From positions 1 to 43,421 of the forward strand of contig JANQKZ010000023.1 in assembly GCA_028280845.1 (NCBI GenBank): 43,421 nucleotides of DNA. Direction: 5' to 3'. How positions within the stretch are numbered: the stretch's first letter is position 1; each line of letters starts with the position of its first letter. The notes below the pieces were generated by a model that saw nothing but the letters and a program-made list of their open reading frames with translations, was not told the DNA's origin and made no database searches. The DNA is from Opitutales bacterium. Its GTDB lineage: Bacteria > Verrucomicrobiota > Verrucomicrobiia > Opitutales > JABSRG01. Below, piece after piece: positions 1,518 through 2,251 of the stretch. A program made the translations under genes and the position numbers.

Positions 1518-2180
1518 TGGCCCACCGTCGCCCGATGAGCTTTGGTGGGCGCTCATTTCACTAGCCAAGCGAAGCTTGGGGTAGACCCTGTAGACCCCGA
1601 TTGGCGTGCCATCCGAAGCTTTAGCGAAGGATGGCGGAGAGGGGGGGATTGGCCCAGTCGCATCGCGCCTTTGCCTCCCCCTGGGTCGGCAGCCCATCTC
1701 CACTTCGTTTCGTCAAACCCCCTCCGGTTGTTCTCATCGCCCCCCTTGCGATTGGCGTGCCCTCCGAAGCTTGCCCAGCGGGCTGGCCCACCGTCGCTCG
1801 AAGAGCTTTGGTGAGCGCTCATTTCACCAGCCAAGTGAAGCTTGGGGTAGACCCTGTAGACCCCGATTGGCGTGCCATCCGAAGCTTTAGCGAAGGATGG
1901 CGGAGAGGGGGGGATTGACTCAGTCGCTACGCGCCTTTGCCTCCCTGGGGTCGGCAGCCCATCTCCACTTCGTTGCGTCAAACCCCCTCCGGTTGTTCTC
2001 ATCCCCCCTTGTGATTGGCGTGCCCTCCGAAGCTTGTCCAAGGGGTTGGCCCACCGTCGCTCGAAGAGCTTTGGTGGGCGCTCATTTCACCAGCCAAGCG
2101 AAACTTGGGGTAGACCCTGTAGACCCCGATTGGCGTGCCATCCGAAGCTTTAGCGAAGGATGGCGGAGAGGGGGGGATTC
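1518..2180. repeat. Tandem array containing copies of the tRNA-Ser 3' end
   Basis: About 2.5 units of 264-267 bp. The homologous block starting GGCCCACCGTCGC begins at 1518, 1784 and 2048. Each block ends in the same 19 bases, at 1631-1649, 1898-1916 and 2161-2179; the last copy is the genuine CCA end and T-arm side of tRNA-Ser(GGA). The linkers at 1650-1783 and 1917-2047 are also repeats of each other. Each unit carries several potential hairpins: in unit 3 at 2049-2079 (7-bp stem, 3x3 internal loop, 4-bp stem, GAA loop), CCAAGC-GAA-GCTTGG (perfect in unit 1), GGGGT...ACCCC, and CCATCC...GGATGG just before the tRNA-end copy. Short frames across it are translations of the repeat and not genes. 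Confidence 0.9.
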
Positions 2181-2251
2181 GAACCCCCGGTACCCTTTTG
2201 GGGCACACGCGATTTCCAATCGCGCCCGTTCGACCACTCCGGCACCTCTCC
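2161..2251 (-). tRNA. tRNA-Ser(GGA)
   Basis: Read on the minus strand, the gene starts GGAGAGGTGCCGGAG and ends CCTCTCCGCCA, so the acceptor stem GGAGAGG/CCTCTCC is perfect, the discriminator is G, and CCA is encoded. The anticodon arm is CGCGA-TTGGAAA-TCGCG, giving anticodon GGA (reads UCC/UCU). A long variable arm (TGTGCCCCAAAAGGGTACC region) and the T-arm GGGGG-TTCGAAT-CCCCC mark it as a class II serine tRNA. The length is 91 nt with CCA. Its 3' end is copied twice in the tandem array just downstream. Confidence 0.97.

Follow-up and report, generated by a model that had tools for sequence, protein, structure and literature searches.

The tRNA-Ser(GGA) gene examined here is followed by a tandem array of elements related to the rtT RNA of Escherichia coli (Rfam RF00391), which was the sole catalogued example of its kind. 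These elements, termed class 1, form a family whose ends follow the tRNA gene behind which they lie, whose P1 stem covaries, and whose internal body is specific to the genome. The array is likely to be a tandem of such rtT-type tRNA-tail elements, with a mobile body, that expands by recombination and is processed at its copies of the tRNA CCA end. The rtT repeat had been an isolated curiosity of a single E. coli operon. As one member of a family found at many tRNA genes in distant bacteria, it can now be put to the test as a small parasite or passenger of such genes.

The tRNA-Ser(GGA) array

The window, that is, the whole analysed stretch of 43,421 nucleotides, belongs to a draft genome of an Opitutales bacterium (62 contigs). 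The final 19 nucleotides of the tRNA-Ser(GGA) gene (AATCCCCCCCTCTCCGCCA) recur twice downstream as exact copies, ending at 1898 and 1632, which is 263 and 529 bp from the end of the tRNA at 2161 (Table 1). The two copies noted in the initial annotation, which placed them at 263 and 530 bp, are confirmed. The resulting units measure 263 and 266 bp, and Tandem Repeats Finder (TRF) reports a period of 263 with 2.5 copies, 94% matches and a score of 1175 over 1518-2179. The copied stretch begins within the T-loop at tRNA position 58, and the preceding base is C in both copies, as opposed to G57 in the tRNA itself. As a control for chance, a reversed 20-mer matched the same flank at 12/20 at best, against the 19/20 observed.

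Read in the direction of the tRNA, each unit comprises a copy of positions 58-76, a spacer (here occupied by REP-like hairpins), an rtT-like element, and positions 58-76 again with CCA. A hairpin with an AAGCTT core (CCATCCTTCGCTAAAGCTTCGGATGG) directly follows both the tRNA and each of the 19-nt copies. Within the window, searches with RF00391 and with the covariance model R1 described below gave no match to a third rtT-like element. Because the genome is a draft, the number of units in the array may be wrong. The locus lacks an integrase gene, as the initial annotation had noted, and the four matches to the tyrosine recombinase profile PF00589 in the genome all lie elsewhere.

Table 1. Features of the tRNA-Ser(GGA) locus (window coordinates)
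Feature	Position	Strand	Basis
tRNA-Ser(GGA) gene with encoded CCA	2161..2251	-	ARAGORN; Rfam RF00005, 57.3 bits
Duplicated stretch, tRNA-Ser(GGA) positions 58-76	2161..2179	-	
Downstream copy 1 of positions 58-76	1898..1916	-	19/19 identical
Downstream copy 2 of positions 58-76	1632..1650	-	19/19 identical
rtT-like element 1, composed of a T-arm in inverted form (P1, P2), a body and a terminal copy of positions 58-76	1898..2012	-	R1, 68.4 bits
rtT-like element 2	1632..1747	-	R1, 65.8 bits
REP-like hairpin of family A, with a TTC/TTC internal loop and a 5' arm that begins with the CCA of the tRNA itself	2138..2163	-	
CCA hairpin, copy 2	1875..1900	-	
CCA hairpin, copy 3	1609..1634	-	
Spacer repeat, unit 1 (GGGGTCTACCCC... 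and GCCCACC..GAGC-GAC-GGTGGGC hairpins)	2049..2128	-	
Spacer repeat, unit 2	1786..1865	-	
Spacer repeat, unit 3	1520..1599	-	

Relationship to rtT

Class 1 elements share one order of parts: the local T-arm in inverted form (stems P1 and P2), the 5' half of a direct T-arm, a body of 40-90 nt, and tRNA positions 58-76. The body splits the direct T-arm between positions 57 and 58; the layout is GGGATGAGAACCC-loop-GGGTTCGACG ... C|A58. In element 1 of the window, P1 is formed by pairing of 2001-2009 with 1907-1915. At a Tyr locus whose T-stem contains a G-U pair, P1 follows the 3' strand (GCCGG) and P2 the 5' strand (GCTGG). The element thus contains one T-arm in inverted and one in direct orientation, the latter being divided at 57|58.

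The 178-bp repeat of E. coli was described decades ago, and its rtT RNA is processed out of the tRNA transcript. RF00391 recognises three units in the tyrT/tyrV region of E. coli (134-138 bits), spaced 178 bp apart, each of which ends in positions 58-76 of tRNA-Tyr. The same model aligns over its full length (1-130 of 130) to both window elements, at 1898-2023 (22.6 bits, E 0.083) and at 1632-1758 (18.8 bits, E 0.72), scores that lie below the 45-bit threshold; in both alignments P1 and the motif GGATGAGAA are in register. The reverse comparison used R1, a model built from 12 class 1 elements from outside E. coli. Element 1 of the window is one of the 12, and the R1 scores of these training members are consequently not independent; the matches in E. 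coli and Gracilibacteria are. In a 2-kb region around E. coli tyrT, R1 matched four units and no other sequence (35.5-38.5 bits, E 1e-9 to 8e-9); these are the three units above and a fourth between tyrT and tyrV. R1 reaches members that the Rfam model misses: at 45 bits the latter gave no match in 115 genomes of the phylum and, among 14 controls, recognised E. coli alone.

Annotated RtT units number from one to four in E. coli strains, and rttR is annotated as an ncRNA in the E. coli RefSeq record. A 175-bp variable-number tandem repeat within rtT RNA is reported to differ between Salmonella serovars (PMC2658671). Our literature search, with most subscription journals outside its reach, returned no account of rtT repeats beyond the enterobacteria.

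Ends follow the tRNA and bodies follow the genome

Altogether, 44 R1 matches have an upstream tRNA on the same strand (24 genomes, 16 tRNA species). Their 3' ends agree with positions 58-76 of their own tRNA at 17.7 of 19 bases on average, and exactly in 25 cases, whereas other tRNAs average 12.5. P1 is an inverted copy of positions 59-67 of the local tRNA, and none of 10,000 permutations of the 44 matches was as good. P1 and P2 also covary: the model-fitted alignment A3, which leans towards the model's own structure, contains 59 double-changed cells against 17.1 expected (0 of 500 shuffles), and a MAFFT alignment contains 14 double changes against 6.0. Folding of the window units as single sequences, considered as a sign of structure, was not significant (z -1.6 and -0.3).

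The bodies, compared after the tRNA-derived ends had been stripped, behave differently from the ends. Similarity between elements at different tRNAs within one genome is 0.206, against a background of 0.082 (permutation p 0.0028), and that between elements at the same tRNA in different genomes is 0.085 (p 0.45). The Glu and Arg elements of one genome (G048) exemplify this: their bodies are near-identical, their cores differ, and each carries the ends of its own tRNA. Because bodies are genome-specific while ends follow the local tRNA, the body would be the part that moves, with the ends made on site. On this comparison of sequences, bodies seem to pass from one tRNA gene to another by insertion at 57|58 in the T-loop, with the target restored each time. 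Gene conversion among old repeats could be an alternative source of genome-specific bodies.

Distribution among tRNA genes and genomes

All tRNA genes of the host genome (40 tRNAs plus tmRNA) were scanned for downstream copies of their own 3' ends. Such copies follow Ser(GGA), Arg(ACG), Cys, Gly(TCC), Leu(GAG), Pro(GGG), Ser(TGA) and Tyr, with partial copies behind Met and Leu(CAG). Besides the Ser(GGA) array, the tRNA-Tyr locus (L005) carries one element. A genome of the same family (G001) has copies at Val, Thr, Arg(TCT), Arg(CCT), Pro(TGG), Leu(CAA) and Leu(CAG), and one of another family (G003) at Gln and Pro(CGG). A second tRNA-Gly(TCC) in the host genome (L048:9845-9919, C17) has no encoded CCA, a feature that almost all of its other tRNAs possess; this gene may be foreign or contamination.

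Of 52 genomes of the order, 15 gave R1 matches, as did Verrucomicrobia genomes and four of 40 genomes drawn from a pattern scan of GTDB, including Puniceicoccaceae K14, Opitutales HE327 and one Gracilibacteria genome. Within the class of the latter, 11 of 145 genomes had matches. Nearly all matches directly follow a tRNA gene of the same orientation. Counted over 24 genomes from at least three groups, class 1 elements lie behind 16 kinds of tRNA. In each genome they occupy a minority of tRNAs, and which tRNAs are occupied differs between genomes. The earlier suggestion of a structured repeat family travelling with tRNA ends was therefore right and, if anything, understated, as relatives lie behind many tRNAs in several genomes, each with the local 3' end. 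The array is not a unique local duplication, since elements with conserved structure recur at other tRNA loci and in other genomes. Class 1 elements also explain how some false tRNA fragments and spurious reading frames arise close to tRNA genes.

Hairpins at CCA ends

A stem of at least 6 bp that starts in the gene's own CCA was detected at 18 of 40 tRNA/tmRNA genes of the host genome, against 1.6 expected and a maximum of 6 in 200 shuffles. A looser hairpin test gave no separation from shuffles (34 of 40 against 28.4 expected). In G001, CCA hairpins are near background (3/27) and 3'-end copies are as common. AAGCTT hairpins are largely missing from both G001 and G003, though 3'-end copies are present; the copies and the CCA hairpins are therefore separate layers. 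Consequently, the AAGCTT hairpin, initially proposed as the core of the array, does not hold that role: it is missing at such loci in relatives, and what recurs with 3'-end copies is the rtT-like element.

A scan of GTDB for a tRNA tail followed by CCATCCTTCGCT retrieved at least 117 stretches from many phyla. Of 83 matches examined, 74 lie exactly at tRNA or tmRNA ends called by ARAGORN, which shows spread and not specificity, because the pattern itself demands a T-loop. A near-identical palindrome that begins in the CCA of the tRNA (CCATCCTTCGCT..AGC(T/A)(T/A)CGGATGGC) follows tRNAs of most isoacceptors (L072-L151) in rhizobia, Verrucomicrobiota relatives, Patescibacteria, Omnitrophota, Acidobacteria and others. 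RAYT transposases were considered as movers and rejected, as the four Y1_Tnp (RAYT-like) genes of the genome are flanked by different palindromes.

A second family and tRNA-bounded islands

A second structured family, class 2, likewise precedes copies of tRNA 3' ends and appears to spread in the same manner. Its layout is TCTCACC...GGTGGTCCGGTT-hairpin-CCCGGTCTTGTCG...CTCGGAAC|R57, and its junction lies at 56|57, compared with 57|58 in class 1. Arrest of cDNA synthesis at m1A58 was rejected as a general cause of the break, since it suits the break at 58 in class 1 but not that at 57 in class 2. At the class 2 locus L241, Rfam gave no match at the element. In one genome assembled as a single contig of 4.8 Mb (G031), the class 2 repeat (TGTTCCGGTTC-hairpin-CCCGGTCTTGTCG..CTCGGAAC) is dispersed away from tRNAs (L298, L308, L312, L314-L317) as an interspersed palindromic repeat family.

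The host genome also contains islands at tRNA genes. A defence island with a DruE-like helicase and NERD lies at tRNA-Leu(TAG) (L052:1775-12487, C50), and another, with a CBASS nucleotidyltransferase, SAVED-HNH, FRG and PIN, at tRNA-Asn (C41:105834-117552). Both are bounded by the tRNA and by a 19-nt 3'-end copy with 100-130 bp of trailer; a class 2 element adjoins the tRNA end of the Leu(TAG) island. An integrase was looked for in these two islands and none was found. A 4-kb island at tmRNA encodes a tyrosine recombinase of 227 aa (L071:1402-2085, C55:254.6k) that seems to be without its N-terminal domain.

Origin of the array

In the reading preferred here, a mobile body would insert at 57|58 in the T-loop of tRNA genes, and each insertion would duplicate positions 58-76 and so leave the tRNA intact. 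DNA synthesis that folds back or switches template may produce the local inverted T-arm, or correct it afterwards. Homologous recombination between repeats would then enlarge or shrink the array, as the one to four units among E. coli strains suggest. The array would be transcribed along its length, and maturation of tRNA 3' ends at the successive CCA copies could free the tRNA and small RNAs, by analogy with E. coli RttR. More broadly, and with somewhat less than even confidence, classes 1 and 2 can be viewed as a cross-phylum class of mobile, non-coding elements for which the tRNA T-arm serves as both target and template, each insertion copying the local 3' end directly and the T-arm in inverted form; E. 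coli rtT would be a domesticated or relict case. To our knowledge, such a mode of insertion has not been described.

Two alternatives are unlikely, and about equally so. Under one, the elements are mini-forms of integrative elements, or the scars that these leave: gene-less circles consisting only of attP are inserted at tRNA 3' ends by a tyrosine integrase that is supplied in trans and acts in the T-loop, and positions 58-76 are the direct repeat. The T-loop is a known integrase target, according to the Ms6 (PMC1762012) and Islander (PMC4383910) accounts; the Leu(TAG) and Asn islands of the host genome are likewise terminated by 19-nt copies with trailer, and the tmRNA island encodes a recombinase. 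However, a circle would carry the donor's 58-76, and a move between different tRNAs would be expected to produce chimeric tRNAs. Instead, copy and tRNA agree, exactly so in 25 of 44 cases, and it is bodies that move. The initial annotation's idea of an attachment point survives in part, in the fixed 57|58 junction, where T-loop integrases act, but the simple integrase model, at a locus without an integrase, leaves the local copy and the inverted T-arm unexplained. Under the other alternative, nothing is mobile: each array arose once per tRNA as an old tandem duplication and was homogenised within its genome by gene conversion. Units within one array are indeed near identical, copy number varies in E. 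coli, and conversion can homogenise repeats. Nevertheless, a random event explains neither an edge held constant at 57/58 across three groups and more than ten different tRNAs nor the inverted T-arm copy, and the occupation of a minority of tRNAs, in a set that varies between genomes, also speaks against it.

Less probable again is a DNA transposase with an unusual staggered cut of 19-20 bp, of the casposase/Cas1 type, with the copy as target-site duplication. This would suit a local copy of fixed length at a fixed tRNA position, and the use of a common junction by two unrelated families (57|58 in class 1, 56|57 in class 2), yet common terminal inverted repeats are absent except for those derived from the tRNA, and the duplication often runs into the trailer. 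The least probable proposal is that function resides in the CCA hairpins, acting as terminators or as signals for tRNA 3' processing, and that the 19-nt copies are their by-products. The excess of CCA stems in the host genome and the same hairpin behind tRNAs in many phyla favour it. As a cause of the copies it is contradicted by G001, where hairpins are near background, and by E. coli, which has 3'-end copies without that hairpin sequence.

Comparison with known systems

The CCA hairpins resemble REP palindromes tagged with GTAG or CGTC (PMC3733652) in being short, imperfect, paired palindromes with a 3x3 internal loop. REPs of the CGTC type are without a transposase and often end in CCA (PMC3733652). 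The CCA hairpins differ in abutting tRNA CCA ends, an association that the text of PMC3733652 does not report. With tRNA-targeted islands of the Islander and Ms6 type, the array shares the break in the T-loop, the restored tRNA 3' end and the displaced fragment downstream. In contrast to them, it has no integrase, its ends follow the local tRNA, and its body is common to different tRNAs.

The closest counterpart is E. coli rtT/RttR. Both follow a same-strand tRNA, in tandem units of variable number that each end in positions 58-76 with CCA, and both have the 5' inverted T-stem copy (P1), the GGATGAGAA motif and GGTTCGA. The E. coli repeat occurs behind Tyr only, whereas class 1 elements lie behind Ser(GGA) and many other tRNAs in other hosts. 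The window elements score below the Rfam threshold, have an unlike body, and are separated by a spacer of REP-like hairpins.
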